From Periplaneta americana (lineage: Eukaryota > Arthropoda > Insecta > Blattodea > Blattidae): a stretch of 64,000 bases of DNA. Location: the NCBI RefSeq assembly GCF_040183065.1, contig NC_091119.1, positions 102,559,274 through 102,623,273 on the forward strand, read 5' to 3'. Every line of letters begins with the position of its first letter. Positions within the stretch are counted from its first letter, which is position 1. Below the pieces are notes generated by a model. That model was not told where the DNA came from. It saw only the letters and a list, made by a program, of their open reading frames with translations, and made no database searches. Below, piece by piece: positions 1 through 61,418 of this stretch. Both the position numbers and the translations under genes were made by a program.

Positions 1-1689
1 TAATCAACCTTCGTCTTTGTGAACATAGGCCAGCAGGCATTGATAATAATTGCTATCGATATGATGGCTAGATACGAGATCGCAAACGTGTTAAAATCTA
101 CTGGGGATATTTTATATTTTCACATTACATGTTATGAGTGTCAGCTGAGATAAGAATATTGTAATTGTCGTGACATATTGTTATTAGGTCTCTTGCGCAT
201 ATGGGTCATGACACTGAAATGTGACGTAACAATGGCAAGCTGTAGGAAGGGAACGTAATATATTACAATAAAGTTTATTAATATCTTTACATGGGAAGTG
301 CCTGACTGCGAAACTCGGCAACTTAGATTTGAATTCAGGGTTGTGCGATCGTTCTGGTCAGACAATGAATTCAAGAACTGCACAACCTATCTTAAAATAT
401 CTCAATCTATTTTAATATCTTCATTTTTTCAGCTAATTAGAACTTATAACCAATCAGTGACAGATGTCGCTGGATCAGTTAAATCAGATCTGCAGGACAC
501 AATTGTTAAGGGAAGGAGATGGTAAAGGTATAGAGAATTAAATAAATGTTTTAAAATACACTTAGATGTGACGTGAAAAATATATTAGATACATAAAATT
601 TACACTGTCACACGTTAAAAGTGTTAAAATTGTATTATATTAGATACAATTTAATAAGCATTTATGTCCTCCACAACTGCTGTGACGTCATTTTTAAAGC
701 TTTGCTGCACAGGGTTATTAAATTTAACTAAACCTTGATCACAATTTCCCGTAACTTTAATTTTTTTATTTATTCCATACAAAATTCTCTAACACAGTTT
801 AAACACAAAAATTGAACAGTATATCATCTGTATTTCTTCCTTACGAGTTTAAAAACAATGTACGTGCAATGAACTTCAACTCCCCTGTTCATGGCAAACC
901 AGATGAAGAAGTTGTTGAGAGCAACACAGCCTTATGTGCACTCCCTGCCGATTACACAGCGTTGCACGATCTCGTAATTAATTAATTTCAAAACGCACAT
1001 TTTGTTGAAAACTATTCAAAATACAGCAAAATGCTATTTGACTTTATTTGTTGCTCTTTACTAAAGGAATCATCCACCAGAATTAATGACATTGCTTACG
1101 GCTCACCCTGTACAAAATACTTTCGTTGAAGAGAAGACAAAAGTTCTCATAAAATAGGCTGACCAAATTCCATATAAGTACCGATTTAAAGATTAGTGAA
1201 AAAATGCTGTGAAATTGGATCAGAACTGTAAAAATTAGGTGAAATGCTCTCATAGTCGGCCTAACGTACTAGAGATTTAATTTAATTTTAATTGGTATTA
1301 CTTTTAACCGAATGAACAATTCGTCAACAGACTACCATTTTGTACGTAATATTTTCTGTAATGACTTCTATCTCTCGTTTACTAACCCGCAGTGAAAAAT
1401 AATCCCTATAATAAATTCTTCGAAGAACTTAGCAGTAATGCAAATTATAAAATATTCTGAACGTAAAGTTATAATCATAGCTGAAAAACAACAATAAATA
1501 CCTACCACTGAACTATCCAGTACATTCATAATTCTACTGAAATGCTAATACAACGCTTACAAATAACAAAACGAAATTCTGAAACAAGTGAATGCACTCA
1601 CCAAAGGTGCGAGTCTGGCATCACCTGAAACAGAAGAGCAGCGGTTGCAGTTACCAAGGCAATGTAAGAAATAGACAATACAATATATA
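1..1689. other. AT-rich stretch without recognised genes
   Basis: Only short ORFs (80 codons or fewer) with no recognisable motif are present. No terminal repeats, tRNA-like boxes or coding-like composition were seen. Probably old intergenic or intronic sequence. Confidence 0.5.
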
Positions 1690-1985
1690 GATTTTTTTAT
1701 CTAATGTCACCAGGTTGTCTTATGACATTTCTGGTCTTCTCTCGTGGCAGTGGCTTAAATGTAACCCACATCTGAGGTTGGGGCGCCCCGATGACATGAT
1801 GTGATGATCGTGATTATGTGGCGCCAAGAGGGGTCTTAAATCTAAACTTAACCTAAATTCCAGATAATAGAAGAACAAAGGAATAATTCCCTTTAAGGAA
1901 ACATTCCTCTGCTCTAACCGGGAATCGAACCCGGGAGCTCATGAACTACAGCTAGAAGCTCTGACCACTGGACCATGAGGCTGGG
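1690..1985 (-). repeat. tRNA-derived SINE (type E), minus strand
   Basis: Read on the minus strand, a tRNA-like head starts near 1980. It has an A-box-like GGTCCAGTGGTCAGAGC and a B box GGTTCGATTCC, followed by a body containing GGCGCCACATAATCACG and an A/T-rich end near 1690. The strong A and B boxes with a non-tRNA body are typical of Pol III SINEs. No clean target-site duplication was identified. Confidence 0.7.
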
Positions 1986-3060
1986 CTGTAGGAAATTTAA
2001 TGAATGTTGTAAATTTTAATATTTCAACAGATCTCGCAATTCAGGAAAGCGGAATTGGATTATGGATGAAAATTGTATTGTTTATTTTTTTATCAATATA
2101 ATATTCCGGTTTCCCTGTTTAAAATGGTATATCACATATGACTTTACTCAAATTTTACCCATTTTAATTTTTCGATTTTCTGAGTAGGGGTGTCCAAGTA
2201 TTAATTTTAACATTCATTCTTATAAAAAAATGCAAATTTTGGATGGATTTCTTTTTTTTTTTTTTCAATTAAATCTTTGACTTTTCCTCTTTAAAATGGT
2301 ATATCACATTTATACTAAAATTATATCAATGTTAACTTTTCGTTTTTCTCGTGAGAAGGCGTGGAATATGTATATATGTCTTATTTTAACGTTCTTTCAA
2401 TGTATCTTTCAAAATGGCCGAGATATAAAAATTTTAGTGAATTACTGCATCCTGGTATTTCTTTTTTTAATTTGGACCGCAAATAAGTTTTTTTAACCAA
2501 CCTCGAATTTGAATTTTTTGCAACAATGATATTTTATACTTACAATAAATGAAAAACATGCATCAATTAACAAAAGTTAAAAAAGAAAATACCAACCTCT
2601 TCACTTAAAGACAAAAGGAAAAAAGGAATGACGAAAGAAAGAAATTACTGAAAGATAGAAACGAACACGCATTTTGTGACAGGGTGTGGAGACGAGCCAG
2701 CGTCTGGCGACCAGCTGGTATGTCCACATCGATGAGCGACCTGCTTGTTGGCGTGCACTGGTTGAGCAGAGAAAGAAAATTCTATAGTTTAATAAAATAA
2801 TAAAATAACTCGTAATGAAATAAATGAATAACTGCTTTAGTAGGCCTGATTGTTATCATTATTACTTTAATGACGTCATAATTTTTATATTTTATTATAT
2901 AATCAACAAACAATTAGAATTTTGTTTTTATATCATAGATTATAATTTGTTATTAAAGTTTTTATTTTGTATAAATTAATCATTGTGGACTTTCTTTTTC
3001 TACTGTTCTTTATTATTATTCAATTTATTACTTAGCACATCGCCATCTATCATGAAAACA
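1986..3060. other. AT-rich spacer with a two-copy diverged repeat
   Basis: A motif TTTAAAATGGTATATCACAT occurs at about 2117 and again at about 2290, each followed by similar T-rich sequence, giving a diverged tandem pair with a period near 172 bp. No gene is visible in the remainder. Confidence 0.45.
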
Positions 3061-3067
3061 TCACATC

Positions 3068-3480
3068 AACAACAAACTTAAATTGGCCTACTCAAGACTC
3101 ACTAAATTATATCCGCTCCTCAACAAGAAATCATCTCTAAAGCTACAAAATTGCATGCTACTTTACACATCTCTATTATGACCTCTACTGCTTTATGCCT
3201 GTCCTGTCTGGGGAGGAGCTGCAATAAGTGAAATTAAACACATCCAGTCCTTTCAAAATAAAGTCCTACGAATTTCACTCAATTCTCCTTGGTTTGTCCG
3301 TACACAGAGAAACTGGTATTGACACAATCAATCAGTTTAGTATTCACAAGCTAAGAAGTTCTATAACAACCTAGAAAATGTTCCAGGCGCCATCCACTAC
3401 TCTCTCGGAAGGAAGTCCACATTTCCCACGAGAATCAATAGCCGACTTCCAATGGACCTCATATTATAATCAAAATTTAT
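3068..3480 (+). mobile_element. Jockey/CR1-like LINE ORF2 C-terminal fragment
   Basis: Translation gives a segment reading LNKKSSLKLQNCMLLYTSLL, then RPLLLYACPVWGGAA, then IQSFQNKVLRISLNSPWFV. This layout (a transcript-wide 'LLYxxPVWG' block followed by 'IQxxQNKxLR') is characteristic of the region after the reverse transcriptase in Jockey/CR1-type non-LTR retrotransposons. Only this piece is present and the frame breaks after the PWFV segment, so it is a dead 5'-truncated copy. The exact clade cannot be assigned from this fragment. Confidence 0.7.
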
Positions 3481-3730
3481 CATCACACCAACCTATGTAT
3501 ATAATTATTTATTAACAATTATTTTTGTTCATTGAGGAGCCCAGTCTAGGCTGCCCTCAATTCAGTGTCATGTATTGTATTTATATTTTATTTAGAAATG
3601 ATCTGAATAGCGCTAAAAGCGCTGATCGATCAATAAATTATTTTAAAAAAAATATTACTGTTTTGCTTCGTGTCTCTGTGCTGGACTTTTATTGGTCAAA
3701 TAATTAAATATGTAAATAAACTATTAAAAT

Positions 3731-3868
3731 TTCGGAATATGTATGATAAGACTTTCTTGTGTTAAATTTTAACGTACCTTGTTTACATGTTTCGACCTAT
3801 TTATGGGTCATCTTCAGAACTGGTCGTTAAAATTTAACACAGGAAAGTATTATCATACATATTCCGAA
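3731..3868. mobile_element. Foldback (long inverted-repeat) element
   Basis: Two 44-nt arms, 3731-3774 and 3825-3868, are reverse complements at 42 of 44 positions and flank a 50-nt loop. The loop contains ACATGTTTCGACC followed by GGGTCATCTTCAGAAC, which itself folds through GACC/GGTC. The structure fits a small foldback or MITE-like element, or the termini of a larger deleted element. No family is assigned. Confidence 0.65.
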
Positions 3869-4200
3869 GTGATACAGTGTTAAAAGTTGTGTAATCAAGA
3901 TGTATACTAAAATTTATTTAAAATCATCCGTCCTCAAGTGAGGTTGACCATTGAGATACGGAATTACAAATATGTAAAAATAAAGGGAAGTGAAACGAGT
4001 AAAATAATTATTCCATTTGTATATTAAAATAAAAATTTATGTGATGACATATAAATGATAGTGCAGAATTTGAAGACAGGCCTTCAGAATTTCCATCACA
4101 ATCTTCTGAACCTCATAAAAAGGAATTTTAAAGGATTTAAGGATATTACATATAAATTTTGGTAAACAACCCATCGGTCCAAATAGTAAGTCTGTAACAT
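3869..4200. other. Unassigned AT-rich sequence
   Basis: No ORF, terminal repeat or tRNA-like box could be supported here. Confidence 0.4.
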
Positions 4201-4294
4201 CCCAGTTATAAACAAACAGATGAGTAAATAAATAAATAAATAAACAAATAAATAAATACGTAAATAAATAAATAATTATATAACTAAATAAATA

Positions 4295-4357
<63 letters not shown>
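4201..4357. repeat. Compound microsatellite (AAAT)n then (ATT)n
   Basis: An imperfect AAAT-type tract at about 4208-4290 passes into an uninterrupted ATT tract at about 4291-4357. The minus-strand ORF across it encodes a poly-isoleucine run and is only the translated repeat. Confidence 0.9.
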
Positions 4358-5251
4358 GACATGTGTAATTTTCATTTTCTTTCCATTCACGTTCTGTTTG
4401 TCTTCTTACCCAGACTCAAACCCATCATAGATTAACACAAAGCTTTACTTACATACCAGTAAACTGTCAGTAACAGTTGACAGTCATTTTACTGGTTATG
4501 ATTACTTTTCTGTATTTTGAGACATTCTTGGCACATAAATCGTAATTTTTACACTACGAAATCCGCAGGTTTATAACATCTGCAGAATGAAAAAAGATTC
4601 CTCAATGTCTGGAAAGTTCCTTGCAATGAAATTCCTATTGTAGGAACAGTACATAAATCAGCATTGTTAAAAATGTTTCGTAGTAAGTACGTATGAAAGT
4701 AACCTATTGTTGTAGCTTCAGAAATATGAGAAAACCACGATAACATGAATTTAACAATTGAAGACCTAGCAACAATATAAGTAGATATTGTTTGCAAGAT
4801 TGAAGATTTATGACGTTGCCATGGACACCAAGTCTCACCATTGAATTAATCGAATTCGCAGCCATGCATGGTGGCATTTTAATGCAGATGGACGCACACA
4901 TTTTGAATTTCTAATATAGAAAAGTTTTTAAACTCTGATATCTTTCATCGGAATACGAAAGCTGACATTACTCATGAAAGAGTTACAAGTTCACCTTTAA
5001 GGACCTTACGTAAGAACAGAAATTTAAGTTCATGTCGTCTAGCATATAAGCTTCGACAATGAATCACATTTTAGCTCATAGCTACTGTATATACTCGGAG
5101 TTATCAGGCACAAATCTACAGATGCACATTCAAGTTTCGATGGCTTTAATAGACTGTATAATATAGTATTAAAAGTGAAACAGGCGTAGAAACAAAATAA
5201 GTTTTGACCATATTATTCCTAACTTTCTTATTGCACGACTAATTTATATAC
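4358..5251. other. No recognised feature
   Basis: Short minus-strand ORFs of 82 and 65 codons lie here, but neither shows a recognisable domain or a supporting start context. Confidence 0.4.
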
Positions 5252-10504: not shown

Positions 10505-10840
10505 TATAATAATCCGAGGCACGACAGCCCATGAAGGACCATGACCAACGAGACCAGCCGACTGCTGGCCTCACGTCCACATGCCGAAGGAGATTTGGAC
10601 GATCATCCAACCGGAATGCAGGTACCGTGTGGTTAACACGATGATCCCCCAGCCGTTATATCTGGCTTTCATAACCAGAGTTCGCTACCTATCGTAGCTC
10701 CCCAAGTGCATCACGATGCTGGGTGGGCACCAGTTCTATACACTGGCCGAAATTTCATGAGAAAATTTCTTCCCCCATGGGGATTCGAACCAGCGCGCAT
10801 TCCGTAACGTGAGTCCTAGGCAGGATGTTTGCGAAGGAGG
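10505..10840 (-). repeat. tRNA-derived SINE (type D), minus strand; site of the LINE-associated duplication
   Basis: On the minus strand the order is CCTGCCTAGGACTCACGTTA, B box GGTTCGAATCCCC, a body with TTTCTCATGAAATTTCGGCC and GGTGCCCACCCAGCATCGTG, and an end with GGCTGTCGTGCCTCGGATTA. The head-proximal part (10805 onward) is included in the 1,671-bp duplicated block. The left boundary of that duplication therefore lies inside this SINE's tRNA-like region, just upstream (on this strand) of the B box. Confidence 0.7.
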
Positions 10841-12475
10841 TTATCTATAAAAATGCAGAAGAGATATTTCTGGCAAGTTTGATTTTGCTATATTTTGTTG
10901 TTACTTACTACATAGTGTGTTTTGAAAACTTTAGCTTAAGAATGAAATATCCAAATTCACATTCATAACTAAAAATAGAGAAGTTCTCCTTGCACCAACA
11001 ATATAGGACGTCCATAGATTCTATATAATCCAGCATATGGTCCGTGTGGCTCTGGTTTGTTACAATATTAAGGCACGGTTATTACAAACCTATCTAAAGT
11101 TTACTTGTATTCTAGATTTGTTAGTAACTGCAAGCTTGCACCTCAGTCTTGACATTTTATTTTGAACCTCAGTTAGCTCTGTAATGGTTTTAAGTTATAA
11201 TTAAATATATTCTTATAAATGAGTTCTATATTTTAAAATAAATTTTAAATGAGAAAGGTGAGTTTTTAACTTCTTCTCCACCATCTGAAATTTCCAGAGT
11301 AGCCTATTGTAAAACATTTTCCATACTTGGGTCTGAGGGCGAATATTTCGATCTGCTATCAGTGTGACGAAATATTCCTGGCATTTATCACGGCAGTGAT
11401 TAATAACGTTCAATTCAGTGGCATTGTAAAACAAATTACTATACTTTTTGTAAATATTTATGTACATTCCTGTTTGTAGTCATGTAGTTACAATTCTGTC
11501 AAGTGTAAACTGTGACATTATCGCTCCTTTCACAAGCAATACTATGGTATGTCACATAGGACAAGGTTCTTACCGGGAATTTATTTTAACTTTCTAATAA
11601 CAATACGCATATAAGGAATGATTTCAGAGAATGTGTTATCACTACAATGGAGTAAAACATCAATTTCAATTATAGTAATGCAAAGAAAAAAGGCCTAATG
11701 AAAAATCCTGATTTTTCACAGCCATCCGAAGTTGTTTTTAATTCTACTGCAAAAGTTCATTTTGTCAGTTACAATGTTCTTCCTTGGGACCGTCGATGTG
11801 CCACTTTTGCTCTCATCACCTTGAAGAGAAATCTGTAACTACAAATTGTGTTGTATCCAACGCTACATGATTAAAAAATCAAACGTATTTTAGAACTTCA
11901 TTTCCACATTTGTCGAATCTTCAAGAAGATAATGAGAGCAAGACTGGCACAAATCCTAACTTGTTCTGTGCCTAAAACTAAATGTTTCCATTGTTATAAA
12001 CACATGAAAATGTGACAGAATTGAACTAAAAAAGCCTAAATAAACCAAACATAACCGGTCACTGATCCTGGATCTTACTAACTCGCTTTCCATAAAAAAC
12101 AGTACAGTGCAAGACTCGCTTTCTGTGAAGAAGCTGATGCAAGGCATTGCAAAAGCTTTAACAAACCTAACCTAACCTGTCACTCATTCCAGCCCATACG
12201 GAAACCGCGCTGTAAGGCATGCCATAAATAAAACTAACCTGTCACCAATCCTGCACCTTACAAAAATTCGCCTTCTATAAAGAAACGGTACATGCAATAC
12301 ATAACCAAAAGACCGAACAAACCTAACCTCACCTGATATTCGACCTTACGAAAACTCTCTCCATTTATCATCATGAAGTAATGCAACACAAATCAGACGT
12401 GTGTGCTGCGTAGCGAGATGAAAGTTGAAATATATATTTTTTAATTTACGTTTTAATGATGCCTTGGCGGATACA
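10805..12475. repeat. Left copy of 1,671-bp direct repeat flanking the LINE
   Basis: Starts TAACGTGAGTCC and ends GGCGGATACA. The same block recurs at 17787-19457 with a constant offset of 6,982 at both ends, so there is no net indel. I found no mismatch in the segments compared by eye, and the chance ORFs in the two copies translate identically. It immediately abuts the 5' end of the LINE. Interpreted as a very long target-site duplication. It does not look like an LTR: the ends are not TG...CA and the interior is a poly-A LINE. Confidence 0.9.
11955..12345. repeat. Irregular repeats with AACCTAACCTGTCAC motif
   Basis: Four related starts, each with some form of ACCTGTCACT followed by ATCCTG and a CTTAC, occur near 12050, 12166, 12232 and 12320 with spacing of about 65-120 bp. 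Short AACCTAACCT strings resemble the insect telomeric motif, but only two units occur in a row. The block is repeated in the right-hand duplicate at about 18937-19327. Confidence 0.45.
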
Positions 12476-12602
12476 GTCTAGCTCTGACAGCCATCGCAGT
12501 AGGACGTGTCCAGCAGCGCGTTGGGTCTGAGCAGGCAAGCAGCTAACATTGAGTGGTTGTTGTTTATTTCTGTGTGTGTTCATATACGCATAATAAGTTA
12601 AC

Positions 12603-13895
12603 ATGGCAACAAAAGTTATTCGGCAGCATACAATCAAAGCAACATTTAACAAGGATCAGCAACGTCCGAGTGCTATGGAAATTCATCAATGGATAGCAGA
12701 CGAGTTAAATGTACAAGAAGACGACCTACAAACAATTCAACTTGTAAGTAAACAACATGCTGTTTATTTGAAATTTAAAACGTCTACAGTGTATGAGAAT
12801 TACCTGCAACGTTACGAAGGGTCATCAACCTTAACCTTACAGAGTGGAGACAGAGTTGACGTTACGCTTTCCCCAGCGGAAGAAGAAAGTACTGTCGTAA
12901 GAGTGTTAAATATCCCCCCCGAGGTGCCCAATGAACGATTACATAACGTTTTCCAAAATTATGGGAAAGTAAAACAAATAGATAGTGAAAGATGGTCGTC
13001 GCGATATCGATTTCATGTAGATACCGGAATAAGGCTAGTTAATATAGTCATTGACAAACCGATCCCATCCACCATTGTAGTAGCTACATACGAGGCGTAT
13101 GTGACGTATCCAGGCCAGGAACAATCATGCTTCATCTGTGGCGGATTATCCCATCTGCGGAATACATGTCCTAACAGAAACTTAAAAGCGAAAATCACTG
13201 TTGCCCCTAGAACTGTCTTCACTATGAGTGATTTGTTTAAAAATGCCGAATCGACGTCGAGATCAACAGTTGCACCCAGAAGTCATTCTAGTCAACAAAA
13301 GGAGAGTGAAGCTTCCGATAACCTTAATGAGAATGATGACGTCATATCACGTCCATCGGACATTATGGAGACGGAACACCAAATTGACAAACACAAGCAG
13401 TCTAGAGGGGACGGAGTTAATGGGTCAACGACTGAACAACATCGTGACCATGAAGAGGCAGAGCAAAATCCGGGGACGACACCTCTTCCGGTGAATTCTG
13501 AAACTGATTCTGCAGATGAAATTGAGGGAACCCGTGTAGAACAAAAGTCAGGAGACGGCGCGCGTCTTCAATCTGAGCTGACTTCTGTGTGCGATAACAA
13601 ACGTAAGACATCAAGTAACACGTCAACTGTTAAGAATGACTTACAAGGCGGTAGTACATCATCTTCATTGGAGAAGCAATCTAGTACACATATACCTACA
13701 CAACTTGAAGCGGACCAGACATGGAATGAGATGATGGACGCAGACGACACCAGCCACAGGTCAACTTCTGCTACTCAACACAAGGACATAGCCGCGCAGA
13801 AGACAAGCAAAGGAGGCAACAGAGCGGGTAGGTTACACCCATATAAGCATGAAGGCAGCAAGTTGGGGTTTCCTCCTCTGCGAGTAACAGATTAA
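12603..13895 (+). CDS. LINE ORF1 protein, CCHC zinc knuckle (430 aa)
   Basis: ORF1 of the LINE, expected to bind element RNA and assist target-primed reverse transcription. Residues about 95-190 contain a block reading VLNIPPEVPNERLHNVF, then GIRLVNIVI, an RRM-like arrangement seen in ORF1 proteins of this group. It is followed by the knuckle CFICGGLSHLRNTC (C-X2-C-X4-H-X4-C) near residue 180. The C-terminal half is hydrophilic, Ser/Thr/Glu/Gln-rich and probably disordered. The ATG at 12603 lies in a good context (AACATGGCA) and is the first in frame downstream of the leader. No stop or frameshift interrupts it. ORF2 follows after 52 nt. Known from the family: ORF1 is a nucleic-acid chaperone. 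Inferred: function in this copy. Confidence 0.88.
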   Translation: MATKVIRQHTIKATFNKDQQRPSAMEIHQWIADELNVQEDDLQTIQLVSKQHAVYLKFKTSTVYENYLQRYEGSSTLTLQSGDRVDVTLSPAEEESTVVRVLNIPPEVPNERLHNVFQNYGKVKQIDSERWSSRYRFHVDTGIRLVNIVIDKPIPSTIVVATYEAYVTYPGQEQSCFICGGLSHLRNTCPNRNLKAKITVAPRTVFTMSDLFKNAESTSRSTVAPRSHSSQQKESEASDNLNENDDVISRPSDIMETEHQIDKHKQSRGDGVNGSTTEQHRDHEEAEQNPGTTPLPVNSETDSADEIEGTRVEQKSGDGARLQSELTSVCDNKRKTSSNTSTVKNDLQGGSTSSSLEKQSSTHIPTQLEADQTWNEMMDADDTSHRSTSATQHKDIAAQKTSKGGNRAGRLHPYKHEGSKLGFPPLRVTD

Positions 13896-13947
13896 TATCT
13901 TTCACTTGTTATTATATTGACATACCTAAGATAAATGCTTATTCAGT

Positions 13948-16900
13948 TTGACACATTTAATCATGTCTCATTTCAATCCATTCTGGTTTAAGAAAGCTCA
14001 CTCCTTTGGATTATTAAACATATTTTTCCTTTCTTTAATCCCTTTCTATATTTATTTCTCGTTCATGACGGATGTCATTAATATTCTTACCTTAAATGTC
14101 AATAATATCTCCTCTCCCCGTAAAATTAAGTTATTATCACAGTGTCTTCGCAATATGGACATCCAGATTGGCTTACTGCAGGAGGTCGGGACTTCGAACC
14201 TTCACAGCATATTTGGTTATAATATAGAATCCAACATTCTAACCGATGAGAGAGGAACAGCTGTAGTGATTCAAGATCACATTCCATATACAGACGTAAT
14301 TAAACTTCCCGATGGAAGGGGAATAGCACTCCGAGTAGATAATATCCATATTGTGAATGTGTATGCCCCCTCAGGCTCTCAGAAACGACGTGAACGTCAG
14401 AAGTTTTTTACGACTGATATAACACCGCTTTTAGCACGTAAAAATGAACAATTAGTATTAGGAGGAGATTTTAACTGTGTATTACACGCCTCCGACACTT
14501 CCGGAGAATATCATCCTTGCCCGGAACTCCAAAATATAATCGATGGTCTAAAACTATTGGATTCATGGAAATTACAGACACGCCGAAATTCCCTTTACAC
14601 ATATAAAAGTCATAATTGCGCTTCAAGGTTAGATAGAATATATATGACACAGAACCTGAAGTCCAATCTTCGAGGTACAGACATATGCCCGGTCGCTTTC
14701 TCTGATCATTGTGGTTATATAATAACCCTACGAATTCCACGTCTACCCACTCCATTTGGCAGAGGAATATGGAAGCTTAACACAAGCATATTGAAGGAAG
14801 AGGATTTCAAAGAGGATTTGGAACACAAGTGGAGAATATATCAACGCCAGAAGTCGAGGTATCCAAATATTTTAGAATGGTGGGTCAATACGAAACAAAA
14901 ATTAGGAAAATGGATGAAATACTATAGCATTCTTCGACAACAGGAAATAAAAGGACAAGAAGAATATTTGTATGGATTACTGAGGGACATATATGATTCG
15001 TCTTCAACAGAACCTCGATTAACCACTTTACTGAAAAAAGTTAAAGCAAGTATCCTCAAAATTCAACATGATCGAGATAGAGGTACACAAATACGAGCCC
15101 GGTCCAACAGTATGTCAGGGGAGTCAACTTCCATGTATGATGTCATTCGAGAGACGAAGAGGGGGAAAAGAAAATATATTAACATGATTACTACTGCTGA
15201 TGGAATAATACACACAGCACAACCATCAATACGTTCTGTTTTGTACGAGTATTACAAGAATCTATATACCGAACCAGTTGCTGCGCCAAGTATCAATATA
15301 CAAGCCAGTCAGAATAACCCGCCATCAGCTACACTCACAACGCCTTTAACAACACAAAATATATTGGCAGCTATTAAAGCTAGTCCATTGAATAAGTCAC
15401 CAGGAGCGGATGGAATTCCAGTCGAGTTCTACATTGCGTTTTGGAGTATAATCGAGAGGGAAATGGTAGAAATAATGAACGCCCTTATGACATCTCCTGT
15501 TATTCCCAGTGATATTTGTTTGGGAATAATGGTACTCATACCCAAGATTGCTTGCCCGAAGACAGCTCTAGACTACCGTCCCATTACTCTCCTGAACAGC
15601 GATTACAAGATATTTATGAGGTGTATGAAGACACGTTTGAGTACAATTTTTCCACATGTAATAGGACCTCATCAGCAATGTTTAGTGGCTGGCCGAAATA
15701 TTCTCAATGCTACATGTGCAATTCGTGATAGCATCAGTGTCGCAAAACAAAATAAACAAAATCATATGCTTATTTCCCTTGATTTTGACCATGCATTTGA
15801 TAGAGTACGTCATAATTATCTACTACAACGAATGATGGAGTTAAACATAGACCCAGCTTTTATAGCTTGCCTACGCAATATAATGGCTGTTAGTAATTCA
15901 AAACTGTTAGTAAACGGACATCTTACACAAGCCTTCCCTGTGGAAAGATCAGTGCGGCAAGGTTGCCCTCTGTCTATGCATCTCTTTGCTCTCACTTTGG
16001 ATCCTCTGTTACAGAATATTTCTTGTATTTACCCTATGAATACAGACACTATTATTCGAGCTTATGCCGATGATGTCACTATAGTTGCAGTTGATGCTAC
16101 CATATTGCCAAGAATGTATCAATGTATACAACAGTATAGTCGAGAAACGGGAGCTCAATTAAATGAAAAGAAAACGAAGGCTATGTACATCGGAAAAGAA
16201 GACAAGATTCCACTTCCTAGTTGGCTCAGCATTCACTCGTCCATTAAAATCCTAGGCGTCACTTTCTTCAACGATCTTAGTCAAACAATACGATATAACT
16301 GGAATTCGGTCACTAATGCTGTTCGTCACGTCTTGTCTGCACAAAAATTTCGATTCGCTGATTTGGTGAAGAGAGCGCAATATATCAATACATATGCTTT
16401 GTCGAAAGCTTGGTATATGGCGCAAATTTTACCCATTCCAAGTCTAATTGGTAAGAAATTGCGTTCTGCTACAGGGTGGTTTTTGTGGAACCGACATATC
16501 TTGCGAGTACCAAGAGATCAGTTAACCCTGGCAAAATCTCAAGGAGGCTTAGGAGTTTTTGACCCTTACACTAAAGCACTCAGTCTGTTCGTCTACCGGA
16601 ATCTTCTTCACGTCCAAGGACAGGGAGATGACTTCTCCTTCACATTCTTCTCTAAATGGGTCTCCATAACCAAGTTAGAGAATCCACCGGATTTACGAGG
16701 TCTGCCAAGTCATGCACCACAAATACGCACTTTCAAACAGGAAATCAGTTATATACCACAAAATATCCTAAATTCTGTCACGGCCAAACATATTTATAAG
16801 TATATGAATAGAAGTTTGCCAGCTCCTAAAATTGTGTGCCGTTTTCCTGTGTATAATTGGAAACGGATCTGGAAGAATATACGAAACAGTGTTTTGACCT

Positions 16901-17223
16901 TTAAACAGCAAGACCTATGGTTTCGAGTGGTCAATGATATTTTTCCAACTAACAGTAAATTATACCATATCAAATTAGCCCGGACATCACTCTGCCCCTA
17001 TTGTCAAGAAGAGGACAATCTTCAACATCGCTTTCTTGAGTGCCCGAGGACTAAACAATATTGGGAAACTACAATTCAGGATATTAGTGACATCGCGCAT
17101 ATCCCTGTGACATACATAGATTTAAACTTTATACTCAAGCCAAGTTTTTATTATAAACCCAAGACAACACAGGCAGCTATTGTGAAGCGATTAGCACTTT
17201 GTATGGAAACAATATTGGATTAA
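13948..17223 (+). CDS. LINE ORF2: APE endonuclease + reverse transcriptase (up to 1,091 aa)
   Basis: The endonuclease is at residues ~48-275, with LNVNN, LLQEVG (catalytic Glu), VNVYAP, GGDFN, RLDRI and SDH motifs all present. The reverse transcriptase spans ~450-790. Motifs there include KSPGADGIPVEFY, DYRPITLLNSDYKI, SLDFDHAFDRV (motif A aspartates), SVRQGCPLS, and AYADD with the catalytic Asp pair near 708-709. A C-terminal knuckle CPYCQEEDNLQHRFLEC (C-X2-C-X7-H-X4-C) lies near 1017-1033. The frame opens at 13948, but 39 hydrophobic residues precede a second Met at 14065, immediately before the endonuclease. Translation may well start there, giving 1,052 aa. No key residue appears missing, so the protein could be active. 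Confidence 0.92.
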   Translation: MTHLIMSHFNPFWFKKAHSFGLLNIFFLSLIPFYIYFSFMTDVINILTLNVNNISSPRKIKLLSQCLRNMDIQIGLLQEVGTSNLHSIFGYNIESNILTDERGTAVVIQDHIPYTDVIKLPDGRGIALRVDNIHIVNVYAPSGSQKRRERQKFFTTDITPLLARKNEQLVLGGDFNCVLHASDTSGEYHPCPELQNIIDGLKLLDSWKLQTRRNSLYTYKSHNCASRLDRIYMTQNLKSNLRGTDICPVAFSDHCGYIITLRIPRLPTPFGRGIWKLNTSILKEEDFKEDLEHKWRIYQRQKSRYPNILEWWVNTKQKLGKWMKYYSILRQQEIKGQEEYLYGLLRDIYDSSSTEPRLTTLLKKVKASILKIQHDRDRGTQIRARSNSMSGESTSMYDVIRETKRGKRKYINMITTADGIIHTAQPSIRSVLYEYYKNLYTEPVAAPSINIQASQNNPPSATLTTPLTTQNILAAIKASPLNKSPGADGIPVEFYIAFWSIIEREMVEIMNALMTSPVIPSDICLGIMVLIPKIACPKTALDYRPITLLNSDYKIFMRCMKTRLSTIFPHVIGPHQQCLVAGRNILNATCAIRDSISVAKQNKQNHMLISLDFDHAFDRVRHNYLLQRMMELNIDPAFIACLRNIMAVSNSKLLVNGHLTQAFPVERSVRQGCPLSMHLFALTLDPLLQNISCIYPMNTDTIIRAYADDVTIVAVDATILPRMYQCIQQYSRETGAQLNEKKTKAMYIGKEDKIPLPSWLSIHSSIKILGVTFFNDLSQTIRYNWNSVTNAVRHVLSAQKFRFADLVKRAQYINTYALSKAWYMAQILPIPSLIGKKLRSATGWFLWNRHILRVPRDQLTLAKSQGGLGVFDPYTKALSLFVYRNLLHVQGQGDDFSFTFFSKWVSITKLENPPDLRGLPSHAPQIRTFKQEISYIPQNILNSVTAKHIYKYMNRSLPAPKIVCRFPVYNWKRIWKNIRNSVLTFKQQDLWFRVVNDIFPTNSKLYHIKLARTSLCPYCQEEDNLQHRFLECPRTKQYWETTIQDISDIAHIPVTYIDLNFILKPSFYYKPKTTQAAIVKRLALCMETILD

Positions 17224-17786
17224 AATGTTAAAGCAATGTCCACACATTTATATGGAAATAATGTAATAAAAATATCAATTCATAAAATTGTAGTATGTAG
17301 GAAAGGTTTCATTTTCTTTATCAGTGCAATAATTGTTGTTGTTTGACTGATAATATGATCACTGAATATATTTTGGGGGTATATTATTGTTATTATTCTT
17401 ATGATTATTATAATTATTTCTTATTTTTAACAAGTACTTAAGATTCTTTAACTTTTTGAGACTTATTTTTTGTACTTAATTATGTGATAACTAATAACAT
17501 TAAGCAGAGGAATTGAAATACTTTTGAACTGAACGTTAAAGTAATGCATATATCCTTAAAATGTCACAATGTTCTTTTTGTATGTAGGAGTATAATAATT
17601 CTATCATGTGTACAGAAATATTTGCTTTTGTTGTACTAGGAAAATCTCACTCAGATTATTCAACATTCATATGGGACCATTATTTTATTAAGTATTGTCT
17701 GTTTGAAATGTTTTGTTATTGCTATAGTTGTATATAATTTTGTGTTGCAATAAAAAAAAAAAAAAAAAAAAGTAAAAAAAAAAAAA
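17224..17786 (+). other. LINE 3' UTR and poly-A tail
   Basis: AT-rich non-coding sequence ending with AATAAA (17749-17754), a run of about 20 A, a GT interruption, and a second A run that joins directly to TAACGTGAG, the start of the right-hand repeat. The polyadenylated end abutting duplicated target DNA is the signature of target-primed reverse transcription. Confidence 0.85.
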
Positions 17787-19457
17787 TAACGTGAGTCCTA
17801 GGCAGGATGTTTGCGAAGGAGGTTATCTATAAAAATGCAGAAGAGATATTTCTGGCAAGTTTGATTTTGCTATATTTTGTTGTTACTTACTACATAGTGT
17901 GTTTTGAAAACTTTAGCTTAAGAATGAAATATCCAAATTCACATTCATAACTAAAAATAGAGAAGTTCTCCTTGCACCAACAATATAGGACGTCCATAGA
18001 TTCTATATAATCCAGCATATGGTCCGTGTGGCTCTGGTTTGTTACAATATTAAGGCACGGTTATTACAAACCTATCTAAAGTTTACTTGTATTCTAGATT
18101 TGTTAGTAACTGCAAGCTTGCACCTCAGTCTTGACATTTTATTTTGAACCTCAGTTAGCTCTGTAATGGTTTTAAGTTATAATTAAATATATTCTTATAA
18201 ATGAGTTCTATATTTTAAAATAAATTTTAAATGAGAAAGGTGAGTTTTTAACTTCTTCTCCACCATCTGAAATTTCCAGAGTAGCCTATTGTAAAACATT
18301 TTCCATACTTGGGTCTGAGGGCGAATATTTCGATCTGCTATCAGTGTGACGAAATATTCCTGGCATTTATCACGGCAGTGATTAATAACGTTCAATTCAG
18401 TGGCATTGTAAAACAAATTACTATACTTTTTGTAAATATTTATGTACATTCCTGTTTGTAGTCATGTAGTTACAATTCTGTCAAGTGTAAACTGTGACAT
18501 TATCGCTCCTTTCACAAGCAATACTATGGTATGTCACATAGGACAAGGTTCTTACCGGGAATTTATTTTAACTTTCTAATAACAATACGCATATAAGGAA
18601 TGATTTCAGAGAATGTGTTATCACTACAATGGAGTAAAACATCAATTTCAATTATAGTAATGCAAAGAAAAAAGGCCTAATGAAAAATCCTGATTTTTCA
18701 CAGCCATCCGAAGTTGTTTTTAATTCTACTGCAAAAGTTCATTTTGTCAGTTACAATGTTCTTCCTTGGGACCGTCGATGTGCCACTTTTGCTCTCATCA
18801 CCTTGAAGAGAAATCTGTAACTACAAATTGTGTTGTATCCAACGCTACATGATTAAAAAATCAAACGTATTTTAGAACTTCATTTCCACATTTGTCGAAT
18901 CTTCAAGAAGATAATGAGAGCAAGACTGGCACAAATCCTAACTTGTTCTGTGCCTAAAACTAAATGTTTCCATTGTTATAAACACATGAAAATGTGACAG
19001 AATTGAACTAAAAAAGCCTAAATAAACCAAACATAACCGGTCACTGATCCTGGATCTTACTAACTCGCTTTCCATAAAAAACAGTACAGTGCAAGACTCG
19101 CTTTCTGTGAAGAAGCTGATGCAAGGCATTGCAAAAGCTTTAACAAACCTAACCTAACCTGTCACTCATTCCAGCCCATACGGAAACCGCGCTGTAAGGC
19201 ATGCCATAAATAAAACTAACCTGTCACCAATCCTGCACCTTACAAAAATTCGCCTTCTATAAAGAAACGGTACATGCAATACATAACCAAAAGACCGAAC
19301 AAACCTAACCTCACCTGATATTCGACCTTACGAAAACTCTCTCCATTTATCATCATGAAGTAATGCAACACAAATCAGACGTGTGTGCTGCGTAGCGAGA
19401 TGAAAGTTGAAATATATATTTTTTAATTTACGTTTTAATGATGCCTTGGCGGATACA
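17787..19457. repeat. Right copy of 1,671-bp direct repeat flanking the LINE
   Basis: Matches 10805-12475 over its whole length, as far as checked. It begins directly after the LINE poly-A tail and ends at GGATACA, after which unique sequence (ACTCTGGTCAC) continues. The pre-insertion site is therefore inferred as SINE D followed by one copy of this block followed by 19458 onward. Confidence 0.9.
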
Positions 19458-19860
19458 ACACTCTGGTCACTTTCAAGAGATGGTGAAGGCGTCTGGAAGC
19501 CAGTACAGCAGGCTCCAACGTAAACTCTGATAAATAAACGCATCGGCGTACAAGCCAAACAAATTTCTGCTGCAGACCTCGACATCCAGTACAAGTTCTG
19601 AAAACATCCTACCTGCTACAAGCCCTACTACAAGCCTGTTGTTCTTCTTCTTTAAAAACTTCTTATCCAACCACTACAAGTCTAACTAATGCAAGGATAA
19701 AAAATTACACAACTTGAGTCATTTCGATCACATCACCCTCTATCTAAAACATTAAATTTATGTACTAATGTTAACGTAAAAAGGACATATGTGCAAAAAC
19801 TGCTTGTGTTCTGTGACCTGGTGGAGTGCAACAGCATGCTTTATGGCTTTAACTCATAAA
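19458..19860. other. No recognised feature
   Basis: Unique-looking sequence to the right of the duplication. Minus-strand ORFs of 65-88 codons cross the duplication edge and show no recognisable domain. Confidence 0.4.
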
Positions 19861-32880: not shown

Positions 32881-33005
32881 GGATTCTACAAGATGGATAA
32901 TAAAATTAATCCCTTCGCGATCACGTTACCAAATAAAATTACGTTATTAAAAATTTTTAAATTTCACGCAGGTAATAAATTTATTTTCCGAGGTATAATT
33001 AATTA

Positions 33006-33170
33006 CGAAAGCCAGCTATAACGGCTAGGGGATCATCGTACTAACGACACGATACCTCATTCTGGTTGGATGATCGTCCACCTCTGCTTCGGCATGTGGA
33101 CGTGAGGCCAGCAGCCGGCTGGTCGGTCATGGCTCTTCATGGGCTGTCGTGCCTCGGATCATTATTGTAA
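33006..33170 (+). repeat. SINE (type D) 3' half, plus strand
   Basis: Contains AGCTATAACGGCTAGGGGAT, TTGGATGATCGTCCACCTCT, CTTCGGCATGTGGACGTGAG and GGGCTGTCGTGCCTCGGATC. It is the reverse complement of the corresponding part of the copy at 10505-10840. The head is missing. Confidence 0.72.
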
Positions 33171-33845
33171 TTAAGTAAAAGTTTGTTCTGTGAAACTGCC
33201 GTTGACTGAGGGAGCAAAAGCTTGCTGCCTTGCACATCTTATAAATGCCGAACACTATGAATCGCGTTAGAAATACACAGCTAAATTAAATTTAAAACTA
33301 GGCTCAAAATAATTCTACCTCCATCAACACAAAATAAGAATAGCTGTGACAGAACACCAATACTACCACAGTAACGATGATTCGATTCTTCCGTACGAAA
33401 CAGCTGGTTATCATGTGCTAACGTGAAAAAGTCGCGACTTGTCAGCATGGACTCTGTTTGGGTGGCTGGTTTCAGCGGTTGCCATGGTGACGTCTTGAAG
33501 CCGCTTAACTGCCAATACCTTCTGTAGACTGTATGTATGAAAACCTGGTATTCATAAAAACTTTAGGTTTACAACGTGCATCGAAACACTTGCCTACCGT
33601 CAAATGAACGCCGGACACTTAGGCTCGAGAGCAGTCCTACTTCTCTACGGACATATGGCAGCCTGAATGGAGCTTTATTAAGGGTAACTATCTCATAACA
33701 AACACTCAAGCACCAAATCTAAGTGAAAATGTTCTGCATAATGAGTATAAAACACTAACCAAAAGATATAATTATATATTTAAATAGGCCATCCCGCTTT
33801 TGTAAATAATTAATTAATAGACAGGTCAATAGCCAATTGAAAACT
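33171..33845. other. No recognised feature
   Basis: No supported ORF or repeat. Confidence 0.35.
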
Positions 33846-33849
33846 GTGA

Positions 33850-34293
33850 GTAGGCCCAGTATAGGATGAAGATAAATGCAAATAAGACGAAGACCATGGT
33901 CAAAGGAAGAACAATAAAGAAGTTAATCTTGCATTTTCTAAATGAGACAGTCAGTAGAGCAAATGGACAGCTTCAAATACTTGGGATGTATTAAGCCTAT
34001 AAGCTGTGTTGGAAAGAGTGGGTGAAGAAAGAATGATGCTGAAACTGATCAGGAAGAGTAAAAGGAAATGGTTGTGACACTGGCTGAGAAGAAATTGCCT
34101 ACTGAAGGAGCACTGAAAGGAGTGGTGAACAGAAGAAGAGTTCGGTGCAGAAGAAGATATCAGATAATAGAAAACATTAAGATACATGGATCATATGAGG
34201 AGACAAAGAGGAAGGCAGAAATAGGAGAGATTGGAAAAATCTGGGTTTGCAGTGAAAGACCTGCCCTTGGGCACAACACTAAATGAATGAAAC
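33850..34293 (+). mobile_element. LINE 3' end with large internal deletion (family X)
   Basis: The left part translates as MKINANKTKTMVKGR (compare the copy at the window end), and GQLQILGM follows. It then jumps directly to VGKSG*RKNDAEtype sequence that matches the C-terminal end of ORF2 in the copies at 44640 and 47472 (VSEERMMLKLIRK, ETKRKAE). The copy closes with AGACCTGCCCTTGGGCACAA and an AATGA tail. About the middle of the RT-distal region is deleted. Confidence 0.65.
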
Positions 34294-34718
34294 AGTTCAA
34301 TATGAAATAAACCTTGCATTTCGAGGTATGACGCCTAGTACTGTTGAACGAAATACTTCACTACGACTGGTTAAACTCTGATGAACCAGTTTTGATGGTA
34401 AGAATAAACAATCAATATTTTTTCACGATACATAATGAAGAGGAATTTCGAATAACTATTGCATTATAGGCTATTTTACAACTGGAATGTTAACTATAAA
34501 CACGAGTATAGGCCAAAACCACGAAAGTTATAATAAACTCGTTTGAATTAATGAGTAACTTTAAAAAATGTAACAAGATGAAAGCTGGTACAAAATAGGC
34601 CTAATTTTATTATGGCTCCTCTATTTTCATGACCGAAGAAGATTCCATCATAACTTATCTGAGAAAGCCAAATTGGAAAAATAAACTGGCCAATTAACTG
34701 GTACTCCACAATACCGCA
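34294..34718. other. No recognised feature
   Basis: No supported ORF or repeat. Confidence 0.35.
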
Positions 34719-34905
34719 GTCTAGTGCATAGTCATGAAGCGTAACACGTAGGAAATACGCATCCAATTACAGTTGAAATTTATTTGCTAGCCATTAGGAT
34801 CGCTACTATCGCACAGTCTATTGTTCCTACTACTCTCAGTTGCTAACCGCTTGGAGAATTGTACCGCCAGAAATGCAAAAAATCACCTCAAGCTTCGTGA
34901 CTATT
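34719..34905. mobile_element. Degraded hAT-like MITE copy
   Basis: Shares AGGATCGCTACTATCG, CACAGTCTATTGTTCCTA and CTCAAGCTTCGTGACT with the copy at 22204-22381, in the same order, with internal rearrangement. No clear target duplication. Confidence 0.55.
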
Positions 34906-36060
34906 ATCATCTCTTACAGAAACGCAAAACGAAAGTTCTTAAACACTACATTGTGTGGTATGACATTCCGAATATAGTTCCCAGGCAACAACTGTATGCA
35001 CCCAATGTAGTCCTACTTATCTTTGGTTCAGGAAATAACCCTATCATACCGCGTTGCATTTTACCATACATACACAAGCACACGTAGACATGTCTCCATG
35101 CATAAAAACTAGAACTAGTATAAGATCGCAGGTAAATAAATTAAAGGAATATATTATATCCCGGCAATGGTAAAATGCAGCGGTCCCTGCTTAGGGCGTT
35201 ATTGCACGCATGCCAGTACAACGGGATTCAAAAGGACTGCCATACCCTTCATTGAACTTCAAACCGCTCTATTTTTCAACGATTGTATTACATGCAAAGT
35301 AATGCAATACATGATACTGAAACTAACTTTACCATTCTACAATGTCATAGTTTTAAATTATCAACGGAAAATTTTAAGAAAATTCATTTTCAGAAAAAGT
35401 CAAAATAAAATATAGTCTACAATAAAATGTGTATCTAACCTTCCAACCCGCGAAGACATTCTCAGGCCGTTCATTTATCCGTATGCCCAATATCCAACAC
35501 AAAAATTAATCCGCGCACACAACACTTCACTGCCGCGAACTGCACATCTGCGATTCTCCCTCGAAATTAAAATAAGGGGCGTTCGGTGTAACATCATTCA
35601 GAAGCACCAATAGTGTCACGCTTCTAATAAAATAATAAAATATCACTGCGCTGCACTAAGAAAATTCATATGAAGTAAATTAGTATAATTAGCACAGTGA
35701 ATTCCATTTATGTATGTTCCTATTCCTTTATTTATTCAAACATCCAAACAGTAGAAGGAGTGCAACGATATGGCCAACTTAGTATATTGGAAACAACTCA
35801 GATAATGAAGTAAATTTTCATTACATTAATTTTATAAGTTTAAAACTAAATTGCTCCAACGTCAAATAAACTTCTCAATTCAATGCGTAATAAAACACAA
35901 GCTACCCAACATGAGTTTCCGTGTCAAAGAAATACTTTAATGGAACTATTGCATTCAATGGGGTTTAAATATAAAATTCATGGATCTCAACCAGCAGCAA
36001 TGGAATCATTACGAATACGGATGTGGCGGTCTTCGTATTTACGGAATATAGAGTAACAGT
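34906..36060. other. No recognised feature
   Basis: Short ORFs of 74-88 codons without recognisable motifs. AT-rich. Confidence 0.35.
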
Positions 36061-54560: not shown

Positions 54561-56100
54561 CAAAAATCAATTTTCACACCCTATCTTTAATGCTAAACTC
54601 TTATATAGACGTGTTTATAACTCCAAAGTATACTATCCAAGTGTAGACAGAAGATGCTTACATCTGGTGGGGACCCTCACAGCAGAGCGAAGGTTGCAAG
54701 TCTGCGATAAGATCGTTTACGCTACAAGGCAGGCGCGCAGTTTGTGTTTGGATGCTGCAAAGTGGTGAAGTTGGTACAGAGTGCGGATATATTATAAGAT
54801 GTATGTACTTTCATATAACCTGATTTTCGTGACAAAAATTATTATCTTATTTCTAGAATAAGTGTCTGGATAAACATGTGCAAAGAGTTTGAGTTTTACC
54901 TTATCATATGACTTCGAGTTGACTTTTAAAAGGTGTAGCCCTCTATCACCTCGATAAAATTTTGTAGAAAAATAACTTAATTTTTTATGGAAAAACATGT
55001 CTTGACTACACTTTTGAATTATAAAAAAGATTATTGAGTGTCATGTTTATTCATTTTATACCAAAATTATTTAATTTTAGCACAACTGCGCTATCAAACT
55101 GAAAACAATCATGATTTGTAGAACATGGAACAAGGGTGGCCATATCATGTGCACATGTTCCTGATATGGCCACTAGGCAGACTTTTGGAATTTGGGACTT
55201 TTTGGACAATTAAAGCTATTTTTATGGGGAAAGGAAATTGTTTTAAGAAAGTCCATTAGACTGAGAACGAGTAAGAAAAAAGTGGTTTACATTTTTCAAA
55301 ATGGCGGCTAGAAAAATTCTCAAACCTTAGCATGGCTATATCAGGGACACCTACCTTATAAATTATGTTGGGTCTTATTTTAGGGTTTTCCAGCTGCTGT
55401 TGAAGCTTTAGAATTATCTGATGCACAACTCTGTACTCGACACTAATAAGAAATATTGTTCACAATCTGAATCGTGCTGAAGATTGAATTGTGAAACGCA
55501 AAACCGAAAACGACCTCATCATCTCGTAAATTAACGAACCGTACACTTACAATGATTATTAATTCATCACTAGTTTAGAAATATGACTTCAAATTATATA
55601 ACTAATCAACACAAAATAAAAAGTATGTAATGATCTGAGTTATTTCTCTTGAATCAACTGTACTGCTGCTAGCATCGCTGTCTAACATAGCCTATATAGC
55701 AGAGTGAGCGGATAGGAATACTTTTTCCTATCCCTATTTATAGCTGTATATAACTAACACATTGATAGTAATCCCTGGTGCGACAGCCCATGAGGCTACT
55801 TGTCTACCAAAAGCGTATTTGCTAGGCGTACCAAAAGACCACCAAACCAAACATAAACCTGTCACTGATCTCTTCTTTTCTTCTTTAGATATTGTCAGCA
55901 CTGCTACACTCATTTCAAAAGCCCTCTGTTTGATATCTCTCTTAATTGAAACTGATAACATGTAAAGAATTGACATTTATGTCTCTGCAAGGCATAATGA
56001 GATGTAATTTTTATACTTTTAGAGCGAGATTTCAAAGTTTGAACGACTGTTTAACATCGTAATATTGTTTCATAACAACGGATTAGAGAGAAAATAGAAA
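54561..56100. other. No recognised gene
   Basis: Includes a 12-bp perfect inverted repeat GTGGCCATATCA/TGATATGGCCAC at 55136-55147 and 55162-55173 around a 14-nt loop, and a type D-like scrap GCGACAGCCCATGAGG near 55780. No ORF with recognisable domain. Confidence 0.4.
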
Positions 56101-56727
56101 CAGTCATGTATTTTTTTGCCGAAATAAAGTACCATCTGGATGCACCACATTTCTAGGGTTGCCACTAGCCTGTGTTTGACCAGCCCGGTGAAGCTCAACA
56201 TAAGGCGGTTGACTGTTATCAACCCCTCGAAGGCTTTGTTTGTGGCCGGCCGGTAATTTTATCAAATGAGTTTGAGAATATGTGATAAGAGTTTTTATTA
56301 AATAGGCTGTTAATGATTTCTCTATTTCGTGCAACCTTTAAGTCAGAGCAGCAAAAGATAAAGGAATCTGGAAGTATTTTTCACTTTTACTTCATGGTTC
56401 CACACCAAAAGTAGAAGAAATGTCAAGTGTTAGATGACAATCAGGTCTCTAAGTGGATGAAGATATATTCTGCTGTGACCTGTGCTCATTAAATGAAGTG
56501 GTTTCTTCCTTCGTGAATGATGAACATTTGACAAGTTTTGCGATACGGTGTATTTTCAGGGTAAAGATGCCTTTGATAAATCTCCACAATAAGAATCGTA
56601 GTTCAACACGTGTTCGTGTATTTAGTATCATGAATAACATATTAATGTACGAAAAGTCTAACAACCAGTTCAATTTAAAAATGAAGCAAACAGGACAACC
56701 CGGGCAACGCCGGGTGCCTTCAGCTAG
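56100..56727 (+). mobile_element. Helitron-like 3' end
   Basis: The segment ends with a GC hairpin ACCCGGGCAACGCCGGGT (56698-56715) followed 8 nt later by CTAG at 56724-56727 and a T. That is the hallmark Helitron terminus (hairpin, short spacer, CTRR, insertion before T). The 5' limit is unknown; 56100 is only where similar-looking repetitive sequence (GCCACTAGCCTGTGTTTGAC, AACCCCTCGAAGG) begins. No Rep/helicase ORF is visible, so this is non-autonomous or truncated. Confidence 0.5.
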
Positions 56728-56729
56728 TT

Positions 56730-57040
56730 TAATAATAATTACAAGATAAGTTTTTAAATTGTCGCACATAAAACATTATCACCTATAAGCATATACTCTA
56801 TAGTCTCAATCCGTAAACCAACTGCACAGCGGCGTGCGGACAGAATGTGAGCGGTGAACTGCCGGTGCTGGATCCAGCATAAACAGCTCTCCTGCATAGT
56901 CAAGAAACGAAAAGTGCTAGATATGTGCATTCCTGTGAACTCGAGCGGTCAATCAATGCGGAACCCGCCTCAATTGTACGAGATGTTATAGCTTCGTGTG
57001 TTTTTATATAAAGTCGTTCTTAATCTTTACAAAATTACTA
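56730..57040. other. No recognised feature
   Basis: No supported ORF or repeat. Confidence 0.3.
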
Positions 57041-60624: not shown

Positions 60625-60965
60625 TACAATCCCGACACCGTTGAGAATCGTCTCAGATTAAGCTCCGTTCCATCTCTCTCTCTCATCATCTGAGAAAGCA
60701 GAATATCTGCATGGAAATATCATATGTACTTCGGTACACCAAAATAAATATGATATGCGTAATAAATCACTTTGTGATTTAAAGACGGCGCCCATACCGT
60801 CGGACCCCGGCCAACCAGTCACTCATCTGAGTGCACCTCTACACATGTATGGACTTCGGTCCTGCGTGCATAGACATCTATGACGTAGTGCAGAGGGCGG
60901 CCACTAGAGGGAACCCAAGAGATGGAGCTTAATCTGAGACGATTCTCAACGGTGTCGGGATTGTA

Positions 60966-61036
60966 TCCGGCGTGGCTTAGTGGTTAAAGCATCAGCACGG
61001 AGAGCTGAAAACCCGGGTTCAAATCCCGGCGCCGGA
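60966..61036 (+). repeat. tRNA-like cloverleaf 3 (plus), type copy
   Basis: 71 nt that fold with perfect stems: acceptor TCCGGCG/CGCCGGA (7 bp), D stem GCTT/AAGC, anticodon stem TCAGC/GCTGA (5 bp) with loop ACGGAGA, and T stem CCGGG/CCCGG (5 bp) with loop TTCAAAT. The A box TGGCTTAGTGG and B box GGTTCAAATCC match the Pol III consensus. Against a functional tRNA: position 33 is C rather than U, no CCA or normal leader context is present, and it is embedded in a repeat. A T5 run 13 nt downstream could terminate Pol III. Confidence 0.82.
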
Positions 61037-61347
61037 GAGAATTTTTCTCCGTTCCATCTCTCTCTCATCATCTGAGAAAGCAGAATATCTGCATGGAAAT
61101 ATCATATGTACTTCGGTACATCAAAATAAATATGATATGCGTAATAAATCACTTTGTGATTTAAAGACGGCGCCCATACCGTCGGACCCCGGCCAACCAG
61201 TCACTCATCTGAGTGCACCTCTACACATGTATGGACTTCGGTCCTGCGTGCATAGACATCTATGACGTAGTGCAGAGGGCGGCCACTAGAGGGAACCCAA
61301 GAGATGGAGCTTAATCTGAGACGATTCTCAACGGTGTCGGGATTGTA

Positions 61348-61418
61348 TCCGGCGTGGCTTAGTGGTTAAAGCATCAGCACGGAGAGCTGAAAACCCGGGT
61401 TCAAATCCCGGCGCCGGA
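61348..61418 (+). repeat. tRNA-like cloverleaf 4 (plus)
   Basis: Same as 60966-61036, offset 382 bp. Confidence 0.8.

Follow-up and report, generated by a model that had tools for sequence, protein, structure and literature searches.

A full-length LINE between identical 1,671-bp blocks in Periplaneta americana: a probable very long target-site duplication from one integration

How does a single mobile element come to stand between two identical copies of a 1.67-kb piece of its target? The question is raised by a long interspersed nuclear element (LINE) on contig NC_091119.1 of Periplaneta americana (assembly GCF_040183065.1), in a window of 64,000 nucleotides (contig positions 102,559,274 to 102,623,273) that is the whole stretch analysed and to which window coordinates refer. 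The LINE body, full length and from a young family, lies on the plus strand at 12476-17751, begins at the same 5' end as its sister copies, and is followed by a 35-nt poly-A tail of the form A20-GT-A13 (17752-17786, plus strand). One integration of a full-length LINE RNA probably produced both the insertion and the duplication of its surroundings.

Base-by-base alignment of the left copy of the duplicated target block (10805-12475) with the right copy (17787-19457), neither of which has an assigned strand, revealed 0 mismatches over 1,671 positions at a fixed offset of 6,982, and the whole block-LINE-block structure spans 8,653 bp. The repeat has exact limits, since it could not be extended at its left or right end by even one base, and its length excludes a chance repeat. 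The tail adjoins the first base of the block and the LINE 5' end adjoins its last base, both directly. The original prediction, which had described the same block on both sides with constant offset and no mismatch, and had placed the tail at the block start and the LINE 5' end at the block end, was thus borne out to the base, with a one-base ambiguity at each junction; clustered mismatches between the blocks, which it had named as the sign of an older segmental duplication, were absent. In 18 of 21 sister LINE copies an A stands just before GTCTAGC, so the A at 12475 may, on this comparison, belong to the element and not to the block, and the T at 17787 may derive from the tail and agree with the block by coincidence; for these reasons the duplication proper may measure 1,669-1,671 bp. 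We call the outer left junction x (10804/10805, the putative 3'-side nick, reached by the left flank at 10745-10804) and the outer right junction y (19457/19458, the putative 5'-side cut, from which the right flank at 19458-19517 departs); no strand is assigned to either flank. The tail is thus joined at x and the 5' end at y. Inspection by eye also showed a minus-strand sequence resembling a tRNA B box in the left flank and, within the block, short CCTAACCTAACC-like stretches (12160-12335 and 19142-19317) that resemble AACCTAACCT, the telomere unit given for P. americana (PMC12774602).

The arrangement before the insertion could be read from relatives of the locus elsewhere in the genome. Scoring of 40 of 397 candidates for the block, so that all counts are lower bounds, identified at least 11 full copies outside the window, every one of them single, and one split copy on contig C19. 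Read base by base at x, the left flank runs into the block with no LINE in 12 of 12 relatives; at y, the block end runs into the right flank, again with no LINE, in 15 of 15 relatives, three of which were examined at y only. All 12 relatives examined at both junctions therefore carry left flank, block and right flank without the LINE, the C19 copy with its block split. The nearest relative, C20:116001-156000, is collinear with window positions 1-37850 at about 98.4% identity (long pieces 98.3-98.8%) and has one block where the window has block-LINE-block. Its identity to our probes is the highest or equal highest, yet all probes match many other places too; judged from these alignments, it is either the other haplotype or a paralogue, and the arrangement without the LINE is shown in either case. 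Since LINE-free relatives have one block, the single block is the original state, and its duplication arose together with the LINE insertion.

Wider probes gave a similar picture. With a probe across x (10505-11352, 848 bases; 40 of 8,099 candidates scored), at least 20 further dispersed and more diverged copies were found to be unbroken through x over at least 706 of the 848 probe bases, and for a probe across y, of whose 228 candidates 40 were scored, every one of the 16 long matches, apart from the window's own two, passes through y unbroken. The idea that the block ends are simply repeat boundaries was rejected, as other genomic copies continue without a break past both junctions. On its x side (10505-11352) the target itself sits within an older dispersed repeat, of which 17 more diverged copies (89-94%) on many chromosomes cover positions 1-848 or 2-848 of the probe.

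The two events also appear to be of similar, recent age. The window blocks differ at 0 sites, and the nearest block elsewhere, in C20, differs from them at 17 (98.98% identity); the duplication is therefore local and younger than the split from C20. In an alignment of 12 LINE copies, the focal LINE has four private substitutions in about 5.27 kb, and its 11 sisters have 3-15 each, with a mean of 20 sister-to-sister differences. If all four substitutions post-date the insertion, about 2.5 block differences would be expected, and the probability of finding none is about 0.08, so that the estimated ages of LINE insertion and block duplication are compatible. As far as these comparisons go, insertion and duplication are recent as well as local, and this speaks against an origin by recombination between diverged paralogues. 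Taken with the single block in 12 of 12 LINE-free relatives, the contrast of 0 with 17 block differences and the youth of the LINE support the earlier proposal that one insertion generated the 1,671-bp target duplication.

Sister copies of the LINE served as controls for what the family normally does. Of 272 genomic candidates, 28 were scored; 22 of these, the focal one included, are full length, reaching from LINE position 1 or 3 to position 5276 with 98-100% identity. Junction repeats were scored in the 21 full-length sisters, leaving out six incomplete or more diverged copies and also an older subfamily. The sisters resemble the focal copy in being full length and 98-99% identical with the same 5' and 3' ends; unlike it, they have target duplications of 3-7 bp in 18 of 21 cases (17 by script and one, the 6 bp of L011, by eye) and no long one. 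No duplication could be assigned in three: L010, the copy at 76.49 Mb of C13 and the copy at 159.85 Mb of C5. As a control, matches of at least 5 bp occurred in 14 of 21 true flank pairs compared with 16 of 420 mismatched left-right pairs; because 120 of the 420 mismatched pairs reach 3-4 bp, the 3-4 bp duplications of three sisters may be chance. The duplication of L014 is ambiguous, its word resembling one found in the tails of other sisters.

The survey of the family for long flanking direct repeats that had been proposed with the original prediction returned none: exact matching in the 21 full-length sisters (right-flank depth 4.5 kb for eight, 2.5 kb for ten and 1.5 kb for three) gave matches of at most 10 bp when left-flank ends were compared with right flanks. 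With a duplication about 300 times as long as is normal for its sisters, the focal copy is an outlier. Long duplications as a family-wide property were accordingly rejected, with 0 among the 21 sisters, and so was a target-specific element, as the flanks of the sisters differ among themselves. The same controls bear on the order of events. Tandem duplications are common in general, and the block might first have been duplicated in tandem, with the LINE inserting later exactly at the seam. We regard this as very unlikely: the 11 full-length block copies found outside the window, among the 40 of 397 candidates scored, are all single, and the LINE would have had to strike the seam to the base and yet make none of the short duplications that 18 of 21 sisters show.

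Two further features of the family were observed. At the 3' ends of L010, L012, L013, L016 and L017 the tail takes the form A(n)TTCTTACG A(n), with a shared non-A word within the poly-A, and in L014 the shared word has no A run behind it. Some copies possess the 5' end and stop before the 3' end (G000:C8:21352060-21357197, C14:15054924-15059864 and C7:70765687-70770035, corresponding to query positions 1-5114, 1-4917 and 1-4325); for these 5'-anchored partial copies, unusual for LINEs, premature polyadenylation and later interruption are candidate readings.

The full length and poly-A tail of the focal LINE fit target-primed reverse transcription, and in the standard model a second-strand cut downstream of the first nick duplicates the intervening stretch (PMC2666801). 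Applied to this locus, a bottom-strand cut at x would have primed reverse transcription of the poly-A tail; at its 5' end the new copy would then have been attached to a top-strand 3' end that lay, at y, about 1,670 bp downstream and not at the customary distance of a few bp. Once both single-stranded arms of 1.67 kb were filled in, each side would hold one copy of the target, that is, a very long target-site duplication. The order of the cuts, the action of the element's own endonuclease at x, and the placement of both cuts on one DNA molecule and not on sister chromatids are what we infer from the junctions. Two routes, both put forward with the original prediction, give the same focal sequence: a second cut 1.67 kb downstream, or joining of the complementary DNA (cDNA) to a broken sister chromatid. 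Given a single integration, we favour the distant second cut on the same molecule, as the likelier of the two.

The cut sites were compared with a target-site model built from the 18 assignable sister sites, including L012, the only one starting with G. The sisters prefer roughly YC|A on the top strand for the first nick, with an A start in 17 of 18, part of this preference being built in, since it is hard to tell behind a poly-A tail where the duplication starts. At y (GATAC|AACAC) the score is -0.13, a value inside the range of the sisters that ranks among the top 12% of window positions; such a rank is not significant. At x (CCG|TAA) it is -3.16, under all 18 sisters (L012 at -2.63, the next at -0.01); shifting x by one base (T|AACG) gives -1.55 and would require that the T behind the tail agree with the block by coincidence. 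The low score of x weighs against a single ordinary integration, as do further observations: not even a moderately long duplication occurs in any of the 21 sisters; the locus lies in a segmental-duplication region, hard to assemble, and its structure is known from the assembly alone; and the mates of the LINE 5' half are uninformative, so that a chimeric LINE is conceivable. The off-consensus x hints weakly that the 3' junction formed away from the ordinary site of the element's endonuclease, which would keep a broken-end variant alive.

That variant is a LINE-bridged tandem duplication between sister chromatids, with reverse transcription starting from x on one and the cDNA joined to a broken y end on the other. 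It predicts the identical flank-block-LINE-block-flank sequence, was put forward to explain a tumour's L1-bridged tandem duplication of 22.6 Mb (PMC7058536), and would suit a pre-existing break in view of the off-consensus x and the more family-like y. It needs a second break besides the nick, however; the match at y alone is not significant; and 1.67 kb falls inside the published range of plain long target duplications. We consider it possible, though clearly on the improbable side.

The structure could also be explained by two separate insertions of the same LINE, one at x and one at y in two alleles or paralogues, which recombination or the assembler then joined within the LINE. Exchange is possible in principle between LINE copies 98-99% alike, y is closer than x to the site of the family, and the nearest sister differs between the halves of the focal copy (L013, L015 and L017 for the first, with three differences; L010 for the second, with five). 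Such a half-to-half change of nearest sister is also seen in other sisters, however, and just 13 two-state sites among the 12 aligned copies are informative, none of them for the focal copy in the 5' half. Four derived sites common to the focal copy and L010 alone are spread over alignment columns 2545-5102, with no switch. In this alignment no chimeric switch was seen, and one in the 5' half could be missed. Moreover, the LINE is found at x in 0 of 12 and at y in 0 of 15 relatives, the blocks are identical although paralogues differ by at least 17 sites over the block, and an insertion at y would be without a target duplication of its own. Two insertions are therefore an unlikely origin.

An artefact of assembly within the segmental duplication would account for the structure without any unusual integration, and the recent multi-copy nature of the region, together with the assembly being the only source of the structure, speaks for it. 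Against it, the assembly rests on PacBio HiFi sequencing (over 6.6 million reads, 90.6 Gb in total; PMC12774602), and the mean read length of about 13.7 kb, computed from the totals given there, exceeds the 8.65-kb structure; Hi-C was also used (PMC12774602). In addition, the novel junction poly-A|TAACGTG is supplied by no other copy examined. We judge an artefact to be improbable.

The coding content identifies the type of element. Of its two open reading frames (ORFs), ORF1 (12603-13895, plus strand, 430 amino acids) shows a CCHC-like Cys/His stretch by eye and gave no match in a Pfam search; compared with 11 sisters, the focal ORF1 has two private deletions of 15 and 9 bases, both multiples of three. 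ORF2 (13948-17223, plus strand, 1,091 amino acids, from a TTG) encodes an apurinic/apyrimidinic (AP)-type endonuclease (PF03372, E 1.7e-11), a reverse transcriptase (PF00078, E 1.1e-35) and a C-terminal zf-RVT domain (PF13966, E 6.7e-8). Among proteins of solved structure, those closest to it in sequence are entries for human L1 ORF2p. Among the best 120 of 358 protein relatives, identity to ORF2 does not exceed 37%, and one, from Frankliniella fusca at 29% identity, is named 'Transposon TX1 uncharacterized 149 kDa protein'. The P. americana protein ANN_08464, met in the same protein comparison, matches the genome analysed here at 100% over residues 1-866 of 983 and at 84% over its remaining end. 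By its domains the element is an AP endonuclease (APE)-type LINE (non-LTR retrotransposon; LTR, long terminal repeat), and on the strength of the structure matches and of the TX1 name it is called L1/Tx1-like. All 21 full-length sisters carry an A-run behind their 3' end, and the family has no LTRs. An LTR retrotransposon with 1.67-kb LTRs was rejected, as 0 of 21 full-length sisters have a long flanking repeat and, in the relatives, the block is part of longer ordinary DNA.

The surroundings of the locus are themselves repeated. Probes from window positions 1501-3500, 33001-35000 and 55001-57000 each match C20, C15, C13 and other contigs, with long matches at 95-99%, and window 1501-57000 lies within a large recent segmental-duplication family with relatives on C13, C15, C17, C19, C20, C22 and C28; many copies are found at 140-181 Mb of C15, and others on C19, C20, C22 and C28. 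A 17-bp indel at 19468-19484, ten bases right of y, is common to C3, C20, C16 and the copy at 13.02 Mb of C17, is absent from 11 other relatives, and marks a subgroup of the family. In G000:C19:129673-152423 about 21 kb of other DNA interrupts the block near its base 1094, and the two parts share a 6-base overlap that resembles the target duplication of another mobile element. At window 60663-62276 a 382-bp unit is repeated in tandem (4.2 copies with 99% identity), and a related stretch stands in C20 at the point matching window position ~23330, where about 0.8 kb is absent from the window.

Known systems provide precedents for the length of the duplication. In excision-repair-deficient human cells, new L1 inserts carried duplications of more than 100 bp in 4 of 7, 21 of 23 and 22 of 28 cases, 18 of these duplications exceeding 1 kb, and in the HeLa cells described there such events were never above 10% (PMC5223499). 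The present copy resembles those inserts in its target duplication of more than 1 kb, most of them keep long A tails, and their proposed cause is a distant second nick, as in the route favoured here; those, however, were engineered human L1 elements in mutant cultured cells, and here another LINE has inserted naturally into the genome of an insect. Among 25 inserts of ZfL2-2 in wild-type DT40 cells, a single one carried a target duplication of 1,228 bp, and alterations at the other 24 measured at most 20 bp (PMC2666801). As with that zebrafish element, one long outlier stands here among short duplications; the difference is that ZfL2-2 is an L2-type LINE followed in a retrotransposition assay in cultured chicken cells. 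The tumour L1-bridged tandem duplication (PMC7058536) likewise has LINE sequence at its seam, but is somatic, spans 22.6 Mb and contains a small L1 piece, compared with 1.67 kb and a full-length element here. We found no natural germline LINE duplication above 1 kb in the open-licence literature, which is not proof of absence. As far as the available text of each source goes, one survey (PMC2912911) collected 5-30 bp target duplications only, and PMC12350158 and PMC12016303 give typical duplication lengths only. The original prediction of an unusually large rearrangement stands in that the copy is an outlier against 21 sisters; its novelty was overstated, since duplications above 1 kb have been published for cultured cells (PMC5223499, PMC2666801).

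The focal case is thus a natural example of a known, rare outcome, to which are added a natural full-length insect copy, LINE-free relatives and sister controls. The published long LINE target duplications that we found come from cultured cells, mostly repair-deficient ones (PMC5223499, PMC2666801); here a natural case is resolved to the base and can be set against a dozen LINE-free sites and the controls offered by 21 sister insertions. It is tempting, though speculative and rather doubtful, to suppose that a germline integration in a normal animal joined a DNA end 1.67 kb away, probably at a broken replication fork or sister chromatid, leaving a heritable tandem duplication whose seam is marked by the LINE. 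If reads confirm the structure, the long-duplication outcome can pass through the germ line. A search for repeats of 0.1-10 kb anchored at LINE ends would find such cases, which surveys of 5-30 bp duplications such as PMC2912911 would miss. Should such events recur, LINEs whose target duplications are usually tiny would be a regular source of kilobase-sized local duplications in insects, partly erased by recombination between the repeats.

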